DNA of 36,876 nt, from NCBI GenBank assembly GCA_013336275.1, contig JAAXUA010000008.1, positions 1 to 36,876 of the forward strand, read 5' to 3'. The position numbers were made by a program, and so were the translations under genes. Under the pieces are notes generated by a model. That model worked only from the letters and a program-made list of their open reading frames with translations. It was not told the origin of the DNA and did no database searches. Of this stretch, positions 1 through 30,784 are shown one piece after another. Position 1 is the stretch's first letter. Every line of letters begins with the position of its first letter. Source of the stretch: Candidatus Falkowbacteria bacterium (GTDB taxonomy: Bacteria; Patescibacteriota; Patescibacteriia; Patescibacteriales; GWE2-39-37).

Positions 1-22
1 GCCCCGCGGAAGCGGGGCTTTT
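1..22 (+). terminator. Intrinsic terminator of a gene left of the window
   Basis: Perfect 7-bp GC stem (1-7 with 12-18), GGAA loop, then four T on the plus strand. It probably ends a plus-strand gene outside the window. Confidence 0.65.
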
Positions 23-30
23 ACTTATGA

Positions 31-60
31 AAAAAAACGCCTCTTCCGTGAAGAAGAGGC
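31..60 (-). terminator. Terminator of the large ncRNA
   Basis: Read on the minus strand, an 8-bp stem (60-53 with 46-39) is followed by seven U (37-31). It lies directly after the closing helix of the RNA and defines its 3' end. Confidence 0.85.
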
Positions 61-586
61 TGCGAGTGAAGATAAGAACGTACCTCTGGCCCTAGAATCA
101 GGGACAGTCCAAGCTTCGGTGGGCTTGTGCGCATGTAAGCCGCTTAAACCTTAGCTGTGGATCTCGATACGGGCGAGGCCGTTGTTCCGGCCTCACGGAT
201 TTTGAAAATGAACTGCTACCGCCCATCTAGTCAGGTACCGGAATTTCCGATTCGTCGTATTGACCGAGCGGATTGGTCCGGCAGCGTACGCCGCGCAATA
301 GGATAATAGGCGTTGGAGCTGCGCTCCGCGGTTGTTGTGCTGCCTCCCCCAGGAATATTCTCATCCAGGTGAGAGTTTCGGCCTTTTGCCAGGGACGTGT
401 CCGCTGGCGGCCTTGGTCCACAAAGGACGTCGTAGGCGACCCTTCGGGTCGGTTTCAGGCCCGATGTACGTGCCTTGCCGGCGATGTGTACAAGCCCGGT
501 TCGCTCGCCGCTACTTGGGGCCCGGCGATGATGCGCACTAGATTATCCAATCCTGACTTTCCGTTCTCATCAAGCATTCCACTCGC
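31..586 (-). ncRNA. Large structured non-coding RNA of unknown class (~550 nt)
   Basis: There is no credible reading frame, but the transcript is well delimited by a near-consensus promoter at 593-620 and an intrinsic terminator at 31-60. A closing helix joins the 5' GCGAGTG to the 3' CACTCGC next to the terminator. Internal helices can be read by eye: AGTCAGG with CCTGACT, ACGGA with TCCGT, a 7-bp hairpin GAGGCCG/CGGCCTC with loop GAACAA, CGACCC-GAA-GGGTCG, and GCCAG/CTGGC. The GC content is high. I tested RNase P RNA: a GGAAAGUC segment near the 5' end and CGGCUUACA near the 3' end recall its P4 strands, but they do not form the conserved P4 helix. tmRNA ends and a tag frame are absent. A segment identical to part of 23S rRNA is present (see findings). 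The class remains unidentified; a very divergent RNase P RNA is the main alternative. Confidence 0.7.
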
Positions 587-592
587 AAACAC

Positions 593-620
593 ATATTAAC
601 AATTATCGGCCGGTTGTCAA
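593..620 (-). promoter_or_regulatory. Sigma-70 promoter of the large ncRNA
   Basis: Minus strand: perfect -35 TTGACA (620-615), 16-nt spacer, -10 TAATAT (598-593). Predicted start is near 586, just upstream of the closing helix. It is among the best promoter matches in the window. Confidence 0.8.
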
Positions 621-4961: not shown

Positions 4962-5663
4962 ATGGCCAAATTCATTTCTTGGCTGGCTGCGGCTGCCGCG
5001 CTTTTAGCCTTACCGCTGACTGCCGCGACTGCTGACTGCCCCAGCCAGCCCAACCAGACCGTGCAGCTTACTTGCACCAGCTTTTGCGACGCTTACGGCA
5101 AAGACTTTAACATCAAAAACCAGGGCCTCTACCAGAGACTCAAGGGACAGATTATCCTTAAGGTCCAGGGCAATGGAGAAGCTTATTACGTCTCTCCATT
5201 TTCGCAGAAAATCATCTACCTCGGACACGGACAGAAAGCCCTCGATGTCCTTTTGAGCCAGAGTTCTGGCATTACCGACGCCGCCTTGAGAGGGTTAATC
5301 CCTGGCACAGCCCGGTCATTCGGCCCAGACAGCGACATGGACGGGCTGACCGACAACTATGAGCAGGCAATCGGCACCAAGCCGTACAACTTCAACTCTG
5401 ACAACGACCGCTACAGCGACTTTCTCGAAGTCAAATCGGGTTTCAATCCGCTCGGTTACGGAGCTTGGCCGATCAATTCGGCGGCAACGGAAAAACTGAA
5501 GGGACGCGTCCTTCTGCAGGTCGAAGATCTCGGCCAATCATGGTACGTGAACCCCAAGGATGGCAAGCGCTATCTTTTCACTAGCCAATACGACACCGAC
5601 GAGATGATCAGGACAATCGGTACCGGCATTTCCAATTATACTTTCGACCTGATGGTAAAATAA
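4962..5663 (+). CDS. Secreted protein with two WYVNP-type repeats flanking a calcium-loop segment
   Basis: The protein has 233 residues with a clear signal peptide (1-24, cleavage after AATA). Two homologous repeats occur, about 60-105 and 179-224. Each begins LKG(Q/R)-hydrophobic, then a YYVSP or WYVNP motif and a hydrophobic end. Between them (about 122-168) is an Asp/Asn-rich stretch with DSDMDGLTD and NSDNDRYSD loops, as in thrombospondin type 3 repeats, expected to bind calcium. Three cysteines lie in the mature N terminus. It is most likely a surface or extracellular structural or adhesion protein. A related calcium-loop tail occurs in the gene at 13363-14676. Confidence 0.8.
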   Translation: MAKFISWLAAAAALLALPLTAATADCPSQPNQTVQLTCTSFCDAYGKDFNIKNQGLYQRLKGQIILKVQGNGEAYYVSPFSQKIIYLGHGQKALDVLLSQSSGITDAALRGLIPGTARSFGPDSDMDGLTDNYEQAIGTKPYNFNSDNDRYSDFLEVKSGFNPLGYGAWPINSAATEKLKGRVLLQVEDLGQSWYVNPKDGKRYLFTSQYDTDEMIRTIGTGISNYTFDLMVK

Positions 5664-24547: not shown

Positions 24548-27500
24548 TTATTTTAAAATTCTTACCGTTCCGCTATCAGCATCAACCTCCACCAAATCTC
24601 CACTTTTCAGTATGCTAGTCGCAATCTTGGTTCCGACGATGCAAGGCTTTTTCAATTCGCGCGCCACTATGGCCGCATGGCAAGTGATGCCGCCCTCGTC
24701 AGTGATAATGGCTACTGCGTCCTTGATAATGTTCATAATTTCTGGCCTGGTCATCGGGGTTACTAAAACATAATCCTTCTTGTGGCCGATTATTTCAGCA
24801 GCGTTCTTGTAATCCGCTTCCTTAATAACAACAACTGCCCCAGTTGCCGAACCTTTATGCGCTGTAGTACCGGAAAAAGACATTTGGCGCGCTGCCGCTT
24901 CTTTCAATTCTCCAACTACATCGCGATTCTTAATGAAAGCGATAACTCCTGCAGCTTCTTGGCCGACAAAAGAACGCAACCGGTTGTTTATGGCAACAAA
25001 GACGATGGGACGATTTTCGATTTTAGCAAAAGCCGAGATTTCTTCTTTGGGGTTTGCCGTGAGCCGCCCGATTTCTTCGACTGTGGCAAAAGTGAACGCT
25101 TTCCATGGGATTTCAGGATACAAGCCCGACAACGCTTCGATAACCTTGTCGCATCCTTCATACAGCCTGGACGCGCAATCAGATAATATCATCCGCACTT
25201 CTGGCAACTTCTCATTGAGCGCGTCATCATCGACTTCAAAACATTCGTCGATGAAAAATATATATAGATGATATAAATCCGTAATAATCGAATCTAGTTC
25301 CCTTAGGGTTGCGTTAACTTCTGCAGGCGATAGGCTGTGGAACTCTTGATTTACCAAACTCTCGATGTGAGGATTATTTTTATAGAGAAACTTGTCACAC
25401 TCACCGATTACCTCATTAGCAAGCTCACTGGACTTTATCAAAAAGCGCTTCGACCAGTCACCCCAAGCCTCGTATGTACCGTCGAGCAAGCTGACAAAAT
25501 TCTGGCCAGATGCTGCACCATACTTCGCAAGATAAGGATTATCAACATAACCCTTACTGCTGGATTCGAAGCATATTGCTGGTATGAACGGGTAGCTGAC
25601 ATGCTTAGACATCTCAAACAGTTCCAATTCCTTCTCGATATCCTGAGACGAAACTAACCGCTCCAGTATATCGACTCTGCCATTATCCGCATCCACCTCT
25701 ACCAGGTCCCCATCCTTCAATACGCTGGTCGCCAATTTAGTTCCTATGATGCAGGGTTTGCCCATCTCACGAGCAATGATGGCCGCGTGACAGGTTGCCC
25801 CACCTTCATCAGTGACGAAAGCGGCGGCTTTTTTCATGGCCGGCAGAAAATCCGGGGTTGTCATCGGTGTCACCAGAATATCGCCTTTCTCGACTTTGCC
25901 GACTTGCGATTTTTCAAAAACCAGGACCACTCGGCCAACAGCCTTTCCCTTATACGCCACCGTGCCCGTGAAAGATTCCTTGGTTCCTAGCACATCGGTC
26001 CGTTCAAGATTTATGTTGCGTTCATGACAGAAGCTTTCGATATCGAAGTCAGTTGCCAATGAGCCTTCAAAATAAACATACCGCCTCTTTCTTTGCTGCA
26101 GTATTGCGATCCCTGGCACTGCTCCTTCGATGAACTCCTCCGGCAGGACATACTGAGCTAAATCTGCGCCATGCGTGCCTAATGACTCAGATATTATTCT
26201 TAATAAAAACTCCTCAGCTTTGTAGACCACCGTATCATGCTTCACCCGAAGCTCATATGCCCGTTTGATCAATGGCCGATATTTGTCCTCACCCTCCATG
26301 GCGCCAACTACGTCGCTTATCGCCAACATCGGCCAGGTTCGGACAACCAAATCAAACACTTTTTTGAAATCAGCCTCCCGTCCTTGGCTGATCAGTCGCA
26401 AAATCTCCTGGCAATCGCTTTCATATTCGCTCGCCAGGCGCACAAACTTATCCATGTTCTCAAAAAAATAAGGCAACAAATGCTTAGGGTCCTGTTTAGG
26501 ATCGGTAAAATCATAATAGACGCTGACACCTCGGCCGTCTTCGTGGATGAACAGCGGTTCAAAAAACATCGTGCCCCCGGTATGTGCCTCCAGGCCATGC
26601 CGGTCGCTCAAATACCAAACGCGAATGGCGGTCAAGGAAAGAGAACGGCTTTCGATTTTCTTAAACAGATGCTTCTCTTCATTTTTGTTGGCCTCGCCTG
26701 CGCTGGATAATGTCGTAATCGGACGCGACTGGGTGATATATAGCTTGCCGGCCTCGAAGGCCCACTCGATATCGCAAGGAAAACCATAATGCCTTTCAAT
26801 ATTAAGGCAGATTTGCGCCAATTCCTTAATTTCGTCGTCGGCCAGTTTCTGTATTTCTTGTTTTTCGGCTGGCACGGTTCGCTCGCTGGTGCCCTCGGGG
26901 CTGCGAACGATCATCATCTGCTGGTTCGAGATATATTTATCTTCTATGCCCAAACTTTTTTTCTCGATAACATAAGAATCCGGGGTAATCATACCGCCGA
27001 CGATCGCCTCGCCCAAGCCATAGCCAGCCTCGATAATCATCCGGTCGTAATCCTCGGTCACCGGATGAACAGTGAAAGCGATACCCGACACCTCGGACTG
27101 CACCATCTTCTGAACGACTACGGCCACTGAAACCTTCTGCGTATCCAAGCCCTTTTCAAATCTGTAAAATATCGCCCTCGGCGTGAAAAGCGAAGACCAG
27201 CAAAGCTTGACCGACTCGATCAGGTTTTCCGAGGTGACGTTGAGATATGTTTCCAGCTCGCCTGCCCAAGAAGCGGAGGATGAGTCCTCGGCCGTTGCCG
27301 AGGAACGGACAGCAATCAGCTCGGCGCCGAGCGTCTTGAATTCCATTTCGATCTCTTCGCGAGTGTCATCAGGCATCGATGCATCGAGTATCAGCTGGCG
27401 GATCGACTCTGAGGCTTGATCAATCGTGGTCGACGTCTCGACGTCGACTCCGGCTAAAGCCTCCTCGATTTTCCGGTCCAAACCGGCGCCCTCAACGAAA

Positions 27501-27640
27501 CGGTCGAACGCCCCAGCCACCACCACAAAACCTGGCGGCACTGGCATTCCGGCTTGCGTCATCTCTCCCAAAGAAGCTCCTTTGCCGCCCGCCAGGGCGG
27601 TGTCCTCTTTTGATAGCTGGTCAAACTTTATTATATTCAC
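24548..27640 (-). CDS. Dikinase-like protein: ATP-grasp plus two phosphohistidine swivel domains
   Basis: The protein has 1030 residues with a GTG start four bases after the previous stop. Residues 1-310 are a PPDK_N-type ATP-grasp domain, as in PEP synthase: GGKGASLGEM (18-27), AVRSSATAEDS (110-120), SGIAFTVHPV (185-194), EAGYGLGEAIVGG, and IEWAFEAGKLYITQSRP. A helical middle region (about 325-550) is unrecognised. A swivel domain (about 555-660) has GGATCH with His618. A second helical region (about 665-915) leads to another swivel domain (920-1030) with GGITCH and His988. The PEP/pyruvate TIM barrel of PEP synthase is absent, so the acceptor is not obviously pyruvate. Rifampin phosphotransferase has the same ATP-grasp/substrate/His logic with one swivel domain. 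I infer ATP-dependent phosphorylation of a histidine with transfer to an unknown acceptor. Annotation as PEP synthase would be misleading. Confidence 0.88.
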   Translation of the reverse strand: MNIIKFDQLSKEDTALAGGKGASLGEMTQAGMPVPPGFVVVAGAFDRFVEGAGLDRKIEEALAGVDVETSTTIDQASESIRQLILDASMPDDTREEIEMEFKTLGAELIAVRSSATAEDSSSASWAGELETYLNVTSENLIESVKLCWSSLFTPRAIFYRFEKGLDTQKVSVAVVVQKMVQSEVSGIAFTVHPVTEDYDRMIIEAGYGLGEAIVGGMITPDSYVIEKKSLGIEDKYISNQQMMIVRSPEGTSERTVPAEKQEIQKLADDEIKELAQICLNIERHYGFPCDIEWAFEAGKLYITQSRPITTLSSAGEANKNEEKHLFKKIESRSLSLTAIRVWYLSDRHGLEAHTGGTMFFEPLFIHEDGRGVSVYYDFTDPKQDPKHLLPYFFENMDKFVRLASEYESDCQEILRLISQGREADFKKVFDLVVRTWPMLAISDVVGAMEGEDKYRPLIKRAYELRVKHDTVVYKAEEFLLRIISESLGTHGADLAQYVLPEEFIEGAVPGIAILQQRKRRYVYFEGSLATDFDIESFCHERNINLERTDVLGTKESFTGTVAYKGKAVGRVVLVFEKSQVGKVEKGDILVTPMTTPDFLPAMKKAAAFVTDEGGATCHAAIIAREMGKPCIIGTKLATSVLKDGDLVEVDADNGRVDILERLVSSQDIEKELELFEMSKHVSYPFIPAICFESSSKGYVDNPYLAKYGAASGQNFVSLLDGTYEAWGDWSKRFLIKSSELANEVIGECDKFLYKNNPHIESLVNQEFHSLSPAEVNATLRELDSIITDLYHLYIFFIDECFEVDDDALNEKLPEVRMILSDCASRLYEGCDKVIEALSGLYPEIPWKAFTFATVEEIGRLTANPKEEISAFAKIENRPIVFVAINNRLRSFVGQEAAGVIAFIKNRDVVGELKEAAARQMSFSGTTAHKGSATGAVVVIKEADYKNAAEIIGHKKDYVLVTPMTRPEIMNIIKDAVAIITDEGGITCHAAIVARELKKPCIVGTKIATSILKSGDLVEVDADSGTVRILK

Positions 27641-27644
27641 GCGC

Positions 27645-29057
27645 TTAATTTAATATCTTAATAACCCCGGCATTCGCGTCGACCTCCACCAGGTCTCCAT
27701 CCTTCAGCGCCCTTGTGGCGATTTTAGTGCCGATAACGCAGGGTATGCCCAACTCCCGGCTAACGATTGCCGCGTGGCAGGTGATACCGCCTTCATTAGT
27801 TATGATGGCTGCAGCCCGCTTCATCAACGGCACGAATTCCGGACGGGTCATGCCGGTTACCAATATTTCACCGTCTTCAAAAACAGCGGCTTGCGCATCA
27901 ATGACGATCCGTACCCTCCCCTTGGCTATCCCGCGCGAGGCCGGAGAGCCTTTGATTTCTATGACCTCATCTCCCTGATCGAAAACCAAAGCGTTCAATT
28001 CCTGCAAGGCGGGCGCGAACTCGACCGCGGCGCACGAGGCGGAATTGTCAGGTCTGACCAGATATGCGAACCCCTTGGCCCTCTTCAGAGCGGATTCCTT
28101 GATCGCCGAGACAGCAGTTTCGTCAAACATCGCCAACTCATGCGGTAAAAAGCCCGAGGCACTTATCTCACCCAAGCCGAGGCGATCCAACAGCTCTCGT
28201 GCGCATGAGTAGATTACAGTCTGGGCCTGAGCCAACGGATCCTTTCGCAAATCCCGTAGCTCCATTACTAAGCTGACGTACCCGACCAGCAACTTGGATG
28301 AGGCTGAAAAACCAACAGTCAATTCGGAGATTCTCCGCTGATTTTCCCTAGCCGACTCCAGCTGCGCTTCCGCTTCCTTAAGAGCCGAAGTCTTATTTTT
28401 GAACACCTCCCCAATCATTTCCATTGCCTGCCCATCATCTTGGACTGAAAAATAATCAGTAAAAATATATTTTGCCAGGTCGACCGATTTTTCCAAACCG
28501 TGAGTCTCAACTGTTTTTATGATATAAGCATTGTGTCGATGTTCGAAAGTCGCGAATGTCGGGCTGGTAACCTCCTCCCAGACGGACAATATCGCGCCAA
28601 CCGTTTCTTTGTCGGCTGCTTCAATCAGAATATCCTTATCGAAAACTTCTATGTAGACCGAGTCTTTGATTATTCGCGACATCAGGTCAGCTGTCTCTTT
28701 TATTGTCTTTTTCAATTCAGGCGTCGTAAAGCCTCGGAAGCTTGTCCGGCCTATCGTTTGATCATACAGCTCCTGGGCTTCTGCAGCATTTTTGTCGTAA
28801 GCCGACCTTAAACCAGCCAGAGAGCTTTCCTGGCTGATCACTTTTTTCACCGCCTTCAAAGCCTGTGCCTTATATTTGTCCATACTCACAGCCACATGGC
28901 AATTCCGCCCCTGGCACAAACCGAGGACATACATACCGTTCTGGTCCCCGGCATAAGTCCAGGGAACAGCCGCGAAAAGCGGGGCGTACGCACCGCTGAA
29001 AGAGAACAATTGATCCGCTTCGGTGCCGATGCCGAATTCTTCTATTAAGCTATTCAT
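27645..29057 (-). CDS. Protein with C-terminal phosphohistidine swivel domain, no ATP-grasp
   Basis: The protein has 470 residues. Residues about 360-470 form a PEP-utilizer swivel domain: KGSPASRGIAKGRVRIV, then ILVTGMTRPEFVPLMKRAAAIITNEGGITCH with His428, and a tail ending at VDANAGVIKIL. It is very similar to the swivel domains of both neighbours. The N-terminal 350 residues are mostly helical and unrecognised, resembling in layout the region before the second swivel domain of the 1030-residue protein. It has no ATP-binding domain, so its histidine would have to be phosphorylated by another protein, most simply the ATP-grasp domain encoded by the next gene. That is inference. It lies 56 bases after the HTH-swivel gene and four bases before the ATP-grasp gene. 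Confidence 0.82.
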   Translation of the reverse strand: MNSLIEEFGIGTEADQLFSFSGAYAPLFAAVPWTYAGDQNGMYVLGLCQGRNCHVAVSMDKYKAQALKAVKKVISQESSLAGLRSAYDKNAAEAQELYDQTIGRTSFRGFTTPELKKTIKETADLMSRIIKDSVYIEVFDKDILIEAADKETVGAILSVWEEVTSPTFATFEHRHNAYIIKTVETHGLEKSVDLAKYIFTDYFSVQDDGQAMEMIGEVFKNKTSALKEAEAQLESARENQRRISELTVGFSASSKLLVGYVSLVMELRDLRKDPLAQAQTVIYSCARELLDRLGLGEISASGFLPHELAMFDETAVSAIKESALKRAKGFAYLVRPDNSASCAAVEFAPALQELNALVFDQGDEVIEIKGSPASRGIAKGRVRIVIDAQAAVFEDGEILVTGMTRPEFVPLMKRAAAIITNEGGITCHAAIVSRELGIPCVIGTKIATRALKDGDLVEVDANAGVIKILN

Positions 29058-29113
29058 ATTCTTATGATACTAGATATTGCGGCTTATCCCTAGGAGACAA
29101 GCCAGCCGTTCCT

Positions 29114-30784
29114 TTAAACGCTCAGAATCCTGACCGTGCCATGATTGGCGCGGACCTCGACCAAATCGCCGTCCTTTATGATCTGGGTCGCGTTCCGCGT
29201 TCCGATGATGCAGGGTTTGCCCAGCTCCCTTGCCACGATGGCGGCATGGCAGGTAATACCTCCCTCGTTGGTCACAAAGGCGGCCGCCATCTTCATTATC
29301 GGCAAGTACTCCGGCCGAGTCATGCTCGTCACCAATATTTCTCCTTCTTTGAATTTGGAAAAATCATTTTGGCTCAAGATCACCCGGGCGCGTCCGCGTG
29401 CGTAGCCTTGGCTTGCGACTTGGCCGGTCAAGATCTTATCTTGGCCGTGGCCAGGCTCCTGATTAAGCTGGTTCCGCAGGGATTCCGCCTCCTTGCCGGT
29501 CACCATCTTGTAGCCGTCGGCGTTGAAGGTGGCGAACATGCCGTTCTCGTATCGGTTTTTCAATATCTCCTGGGTTATCGAGCCTCGGAGGACCGGCTCG
29601 ACCTCATCGAGATTGATGAACTTCAGATATTCCATTTTTATTCCGGTGCTCTTCTCCAGATATCCCAATACGCTGAAAAGCAGATGGATACCCATCAGAT
29701 TGGCTTTCTTGCGGTGTTCGCGCCAAAAGGTCAATTTTTGGAAGAAATACAACGGATTTTCTTTGAGCCGCTTTTTCTTGAGCAGCTCCCCTATCCTGTC
29801 CTGTCTCGATTTGGAATAATTCTTCAAATCCTTGAACTGCTTCTTGAATTCGGCTTCATCCGCCAGCCAATTTTCGATTTCCTGCGCCTGCTCTTCGGGG
29901 GTGATGCTTTTGACATAGCAATAATTCGATTTATAATAGCCGAACTTTTTCCTATACGAAATGGCTTCTGGAAAATTTGCAACGAAGCTGCTGACCGTCT
30001 TATGTTTTTTCTGCTTCTTGAACGTAGCAACCAGCTCGAACAATTCCAATAGCCTGTCATTATTGAATGTCATTTCAAAAGGAGTCGTCAGCAGTCCGAC
30101 CTCATCCAGCGTAAAATCATGCCGTTTGGCGATTTCGTTAATTTTTTTCTGGTCGAAACCGGAGTCGAAAGCATCAATGAATAGAGACAAGCCCCAGAAG
30201 TCATAGTAAGCCTTACGGATTTTGCTAAAGAACTCCAACATTTCCTTTTCGGAAACGCCGCTGAAGGCTGTCTCGTCATGAGCCAGATAATAGTCTTCGA
30301 AAACTTTGGCCGTTTTCAGATATTCCGCAAAAAAACCGTCCATGTCTTGCGGACGCTGGAATCGCTCGTAAACTTCAGCGGCAAGAGCGTTTACATTGCT
30401 GATAGACCAGAACGCCTCCATATATGGCCCGCGCCAATAACCGTAAGCCACGCCATAATCGTTCTTGAAATACTTCCGATTCAGGTCCGCCACCTGGATA
30501 CCGAAAGACCAAGCAGTAAAAGGTATGACCTCGCCCTCCTGCTTGTAGACATTGGTTGAATCATGAGCAATGGGGGACTCCTCCACCAACTCCAAAACAT
30601 CCTCCAGCTTAAGGTCGTACAGATCACAAAATTTGGTTAAGGTCTCGAACTTTATGCCATCAACCTTCCCATGATAAAGCGCCGTAACGGTATTACGGTT
30701 AAGGCCGGTCTCGTGGGCGATATCGGTTATCGACTTGCCCAATCTTAGGGCCACCTGATTGATTTTGATGATTATTTTAGACAT
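29114..30784 (-). CDS. XRE-type HTH fused to a phosphohistidine swivel domain
   Basis: The protein has 556 residues. Residues 5-65 are a Cro/CI-type helix-turn-helix: KINQVALRLGKSITDIAHETGLNRNTVTALYHGK, then LTKFCDLYDLKLEDVLEL. Residues about 80-440 are helical, rich in aromatic residues (FGYYKSNYCYV, YWRGPYMEAFWS) and unrecognised, presumably a ligand- or acceptor-binding region. Residues 445-556 are a swivel domain with GGITCH and His513. It has no ATP-grasp. It may be a regulator whose DNA binding responds to phosphorylation of His513 or to the small molecule handled by the cluster. It is the first gene of the minus-strand operon, next to a 24-bp palindrome that it could bind. Confidence 0.83.
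   Translation of the reverse strand: MSKIIIKINQVALRLGKSITDIAHETGLNRNTVTALYHGKVDGIKFETLTKFCDLYDLKLEDVLELVEESPIAHDSTNVYKQEGEVIPFTAWSFGIQVADLNRKYFKNDYGVAYGYWRGPYMEAFWSISNVNALAAEVYERFQRPQDMDGFFAEYLKTAKVFEDYYLAHDETAFSGVSEKEMLEFFSKIRKAYYDFWGLSLFIDAFDSGFDQKKINEIAKRHDFTLDEVGLLTTPFEMTFNNDRLLELFELVATFKKQKKHKTVSSFVANFPEAISYRKKFGYYKSNYCYVKSITPEEQAQEIENWLADEAEFKKQFKDLKNYSKSRQDRIGELLKKKRLKENPLYFFQKLTFWREHRKKANLMGIHLLFSVLGYLEKSTGIKMEYLKFINLDEVEPVLRGSITQEILKNRYENGMFATFNADGYKMVTGKEAESLRNQLNQEPGHGQDKILTGQVASQGYARGRARVILSQNDFSKFKEGEILVTSMTRPEYLPIMKMAAAFVTNEGGITCHAAIVARELGKPCIIGTRNATQIIKDGDLVEVRANHGTVRILSV

Follow-up and report, generated by a model that had tools for sequence, protein, structure and literature searches.

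Organization of the locus

The window, by which we mean the whole 36,876-nucleotide stretch of DNA that was analysed, corresponds to contig C8 in a draft genome of 1.2 Mb. At its left end, the minus strand carries, at 586-39, what its sequence supports well as an independently transcribed, structured non-coding RNA gene of about 548 nt, terminator hairpin included, whose ends are placed from the promoter and the terminator. The interval 31-620, to which an earlier note had assigned such an RNA, does contain it, but it takes in the promoter as well, the transcribed unit being approximately 586-39.

The putative promoter (620-593, minus strand), identified by consensus match alone, consists of TTGACA at 620-615, a 16-nt spacer and TAATAT at 598-593; it matches the consensus at 10 of 12 positions and has a TG ahead of the -10 element. 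At the other end, the intrinsic terminator (39-60, minus strand) is a hairpin of 9 pairs, GCCUCUUCU/GGAAGAGGC, followed by a T tract. A promoter-like site and a strong terminator, both claimed in the earlier note, are thus present. Two consecutive perfect helices are predicted to join the first and last parts of the RNA. In P1 (9 bp), the 5′ strand GCGAGUGGA at 578-586 would pair with UUCACUCGC at 62-70, with a pair probability of at least 0.94, and in P2 (10 bp), GAUGAGAACG at 562-571 would pair with CGUUCUUAUC at 71-80, with a probability of at least 0.78. A third predicted helix, P3, would close a 5′ domain by pairing AGUCAGG (552-558) with CCUGACU (229-235), with a probability of at least 0.92; all of these strands are on the minus strand. 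The matched closing helix of the earlier note is therefore present, although it has 9 pairs and not 7, and the 10-bp P2 comes next.

The predicted fold of 595-35 has a free energy of -221 kcal/mol, against -192.8 ± 6.7 for dinucleotide shuffles (z = -4.2), and none of the 100 shuffles was as stable. The G+C content of the RNA region is 57%, versus 40-44% in three nearby intergenic gaps. We reject coding on either strand: codon scores are below zero in all six frames, whereas 19 genes of the window score from +0.11 to +0.31, and the sole long ORF in the region (273-599, plus strand) scores -0.135. Gene anatomy, fold stability and the absence of a coding signal are computed results; transcription we infer. 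Since the promoter-like site, the 9-bp and 10-bp closing helices, the terminator, the fold with z = -4.2 and an rRNA-type module share one interval, we favour the reading as an RNA gene. The same coincidence speaks against the alternative that there is no RNA gene here and that the sequence between two transcription units is G+C-rich by chance or is what is left of a decayed gene, which we find very improbable, even though the absence of a homologue of the whole RNA from all genomes searched would agree with it.

To the left, the terminator hairpin of the convergent uvrA occupies 1-18 (plus strand); the gene ends on contig C6, and the two contigs overlap here. The end of C6 repeats the 3′ part of the RNA, exactly over window positions 33-158, behind the same uvrA terminator. 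Given this exact match and the shared terminator, we take the C6 sequence for this very locus, or for its variant in another strain, and not for a second copy of the gene. In the spacer that separates the two terminators, window 19-35 differs from the C6 end (L015) by three substitutions, and the differences within the overlap suggest strain variation at the locus. To the right are two small minus-strand ORFs, 671-1057 and 1162-1494, with coding-like codon scores, each with a strong terminator before or after it; neither has a match in Pfam, PHROGs, NCBIfam or PADLOC.

Comparison with known RNA classes and search for relatives

The RNA has no match in Rfam at gathering scores, and nothing related appeared up to E = 5, permissive filters included. 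The scan included the RNase P models, and the earlier proposal that the RNA is neither tmRNA, SRP RNA, 6S RNA nor RNase P RNA stands. Models for group I and group II introns, SRP RNA and 6S RNA had no match in the window, nor did the covariance models of ROOL, GOLLD and OLE; for tmRNA, ARAGORN made no call in the window and Rfam gave no match. The genome encodes its RNase P RNA at C1:141905-142306 (216.5 bits) and its tmRNA at C3:171039-171418 (128 bits). Therefore, the RNA of 586-39 is neither of these. Extreme divergence from a known class (RNase P RNA, tmRNA, 6S, SRP, group I or II intron, OLE, ROOL or GOLLD) is scarcely credible as an explanation: the size and closed fold of the RNA are reminiscent of such classes, but the Rfam result and the presence of RNase P RNA and tmRNA elsewhere both argue against it. 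Accordingly, the description as a structured RNA of unknown class, made earlier from the letters alone, agrees with the lack of an Rfam match, the stable fold, the lack of a coding signal and the two housekeeping RNAs found elsewhere.

In BLAST searches with the whole RNA, 111 order-level, 381 class-level and 380 phylum-level genomes yielded no homologue, and phage and plasmid records no relative; a covariance model of the 3′ domain (R1) was equally without a homologue among the genomes of the order. For comparison, the RNase P RNA of this genome has relatives in 96 of the 111 order genomes, the same-genus one at 77% identity. Because RNase P RNA was found in 96 of these genomes and the candidate in none, three explanations are left for the candidate: a recent origin, omission from these draft assemblies, or evolution much faster than that of RNase P RNA. 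In three genomes (G001, G003 and G023) in which the region downstream of uvrA was inspected, it is occupied by other genes and lacks a counterpart of the RNA. Its absence from the family's three remaining genomes is weak evidence, for their completeness is 74-83% and uvrA itself has no recognisable match in the same-genus one. The suggestion that this is a new large RNA of the lineage is not demonstrated, in that the RNA was found in this genome only and not in the available genomes of the same genus and family. Since no homologue of the whole RNA was found, the long-range helices are without covariation support, for or against.

Some short matches were set aside. Those at L019, L098, L100, L101 and L102 have no collinear continuation and look accidental, and for the viral pattern GGAAAGTCAGGATTGG the similarity ends after about 20 nt. 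An Embleya plasmid gave one match among the searches.

A hairpin module resembling 23S rRNA

Nearly all recurrent short matches converge on nt 81-106 of the query (window 520-495), CCCCAAGTAGCGGCGAGCGAACCGGG, and most of them lie in 23S rRNA. This segment belongs to a hairpin at 493-522 (minus strand) that escaped the earlier note and is the most informative part of the RNA. It is identical to E. coli 23S rRNA 236-261 at 24 of 26 positions; we take this hairpin to be helix 14, with coordinates that come from the alignment. The conserved core of the module, AGUAGYGRYGAGCGAA(C), is present at 515-499 as AGUAGCGGCGAGCGAAC. The complementary flanks GCCC (521-518) and GGGC (497-494) are one nt from the core, as in the helix 14 region of 23S, whose hairpin shares this register and likewise leaves one nt unpaired to either side of the core. 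The stem of the window RNA follows one C-C mismatch, and some 23S genes are also mismatched at that place (L123). Formation of the hairpin needs this mismatch and costs 3.4 kcal/mol above the predicted minimum. A covariance model built from aligned module copies (R2) gives the window hairpin 42 bits.

The module scores 22 against 23S, whereas the maximum of 150 dinucleotide shuffles is 16. With helix 14 masked, the best score is 13, and we therefore reject the notion of a mosaic of many rRNA pieces; the resemblances seen by eye to 16S (about 340, 780 and 1385) and to other 23S stretches are not above shuffles. Unlike the hairpin in 23S, then, the module is embedded in a separate 550-nt RNA gene, in which similarity to the adjoining rRNA elements does not exceed that of shuffles.

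Two other Patescibacteria loci, L097 (G152) and L103 (G356), have the core in intergenic, non-23S settings, where structured regions of about 375 and about 260 nt, respectively, carry it close to their 5′ ends. Their folds have z values of -3.8 and -4.5, the latter for a stretch of L103 that began 20 nt inside the RNA. The minus-strand interval L103:1281-1543 has the anatomy of an RNA gene of about 260 nt, with a 9-bp closing helix, a terminator and a promoter-like TTGACA-17-TACATT. Upstream of it is a 367-aa ORF that we take to be RecA. These findings indicate that Patescibacteria encode large structured RNAs outside the coverage of Rfam.

The 23S similarity extends over about 40-50 nt (81-85%) in L103 and about 36 nt in L097, and this would suit a third explanation, in which a duplicated 23S gene fragment would have given rise to the RNA or to its 5′ portion, with the hairpin left as a vestige that has no present role. 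For the window RNA we consider this quite unlikely, as the hairpin alone matches 23S there and the remainder does not rise above shuffles. In addition, the closest 23S matches of the module are in distant genomes, the genome's own 23S matching at only 21 of 24 positions; since its own 23S is less similar than distant ones, a recent copy of it is disfavoured. An origin from a 23S fragment is thus possible for L103 and less so for the window RNA.

The module in viral contigs

Searches of a viral collection with core patterns gave 96 distinct matches, counts that cover this collection and say nothing on the frequency of the module in bacteria. At least four flanking Watson-Crick pairs in the rRNA register, one nt off the core on each side, were present in 14 of the 96, against an expectation of 0.78 derived from swapped flanks. 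Among the 14, the flanks of L145 and L147 are 23S-like, and since L212 and L246 are in long open frames, these two may be chance matches. Most of the exact viral motif matches are stemless, several lying inside long reading frames, and these were taken as chance. The stems vary in sequence, for example, CUUAGACUU/GAGUCUAAG, CUUCGU/ACGAAG, GAUAU/AUAUC and CAGU/ACUG. In an alignment of 18 module copies, all six stem pairs have both-side changes and 91% of the cells are paired, a figure that is inflated because the phage rows were picked for their stems.

We ran R2 on the viral loci and checked 21 of the best viral matches, 3 of which are in 23S. Among the 18 top-scoring non-23S viral copies, 8 have tRNA genes within 1.5 kb and 3 further ones (L141, L158 and L226) occupy the D-arm position of tRNA-Leu-like RNAs; hence, 11 of the 18 are tRNA-adjacent or in a tRNA-like RNA, versus 0 of 16 stemless control matches. 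An RNA of 520 nt is common to two large-phage contigs (278 and 263 kb), with 69% identity between the copies (L196:4150-4650 and L209 from about 11100); it lies inside tRNA islands, has the module mid-RNA and has no Rfam match, with ROOL and GOLLD included in the search.

Several of these loci have further features. In the tRNA-Leu-like phage RNAs (L141:8060-8240, and L158 and L226 on the minus strand), a long insert replaces the anticodon arm. L143:11900-13663 (the same in L144) is a phage stretch in which a probable large RNA with the hairpin, a tRNA-Met, a match to the type-P5 twister ribozyme and a tmRNA lie within 1.5 kb. At a viral contig end, L159 has the hairpin near 5317-5346 (minus strand), a few hundred bases upstream of a reverse-transcriptase-like ORF. 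Around a weak-stem core match near 5644 of the viral contig L180 (minus strand), ARAGORN makes ten tRNA calls, those listed all being Ser or Leu.

The main rival to ribosome mimicry accepts a real structured non-coding RNA but regards the module as a self-stable building block of the AGUA/GAA loop-E type, reached by convergence and aiding folding or RNA-RNA packing without imitating any part of the ribosome. The conserved AGUA and GAA strands are those of the bulged-G (sarcin-ricin type) module, which we count in its favour, as we do the occurrence of the module in RNAs as different as tRNA-like RNAs, large phage RNAs and short hairpins. However, besides AGUA and GAA, the apical GYGRYGAGC is conserved too, although the conservation of the core is partly by construction, because the motif searches fixed most of it, and the link of the phage copies to tRNA islands points to translation. 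On balance, we regard convergence on such a building block as rather unlikely.

Possible role of the RNA

It is tempting to propose that the RNA is a new orphan large non-coding RNA of about 550 nt, outside any described family, that uses an rRNA-type docking module to bind a partner of helix 14; we would put this at somewhat less than an even chance. The identity of the module with 23S and its recurrence outside rRNA with varying stems are computed; the docking role, the binding partner and any physiological effect we infer. The sole tie of the window RNA to the ribosome is sequence identity. In this proposal, a scaffold closed by P1 and P2 would display the copy of the 23S hairpin near the 5′ end, and the module would dock the RNA onto whatever recognises the helix-14 hairpin, be it a protein, either ribosomal or involved in assembly, or else rRNA exposed close by.

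By analogy, since copies of rRNA sites often bind the protein of that site, the window RNA may bind a large-subunit component through its module. Mimicry of rRNA is a known route to ribosomal protein binding, as in the leaders of ribosomal protein mRNAs (PMC8058203). Those leaders are also non-ribosomal RNAs that copy an rRNA site, but the window RNA differs from them in being a separate gene with its own terminator and not the leader of a ribosomal protein operon. Docking might keep a component of the large subunit sequestered or else hold the RNA on ribosomes; for comparison, OLE RNA has been proposed to sequester the ribosomal protein RpsU (PMC12286853). OLE, like the window RNA, is a large bacterial non-coding RNA, and there is no sequence or covariance match between the two.

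More tentatively, we suggest that a helix-14 mimic is common to otherwise unrelated RNAs, namely large phage RNAs of tRNA islands, tRNA-like RNAs and independent structured RNAs of Patescibacteria, and engages the large subunit or a component of it; as part of this suggestion, such an rRNA-mimicking module would be previously undescribed. ROOL and GOLLD are often found near phage tRNA islands (PMC12286853), a setting that resembles that of most phage copies of the hairpin module. They are likewise large, elaborate and non-coding, whereas the window RNA is chromosomal, has no tRNA gene in the window and has no Rfam match to either. Large bacterial RNAs of the ROOL and GOLLD type are still without a known function. 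A shared module that amounts to a piece of rRNA and recurs in several unrelated non-coding RNAs and in phage tRNA islands would be a concrete, mutable handle, and finding its binder would make a group of orphan RNAs testable.

Other observations

The 16S and 23S rRNA genes lie at contig ends, on different contigs (C3 and C9 of G000; L057 and L058), and this assembly yielded no 3′ part of 23S. Within the window, three adjacent genes at 24548-30784 have a GGATCHAA-type phosphohistidine domain in common as their last domain; two of them are PEP-synthase-like, the other begins with a helix-turn-helix, and the trio looks like a local duplication.
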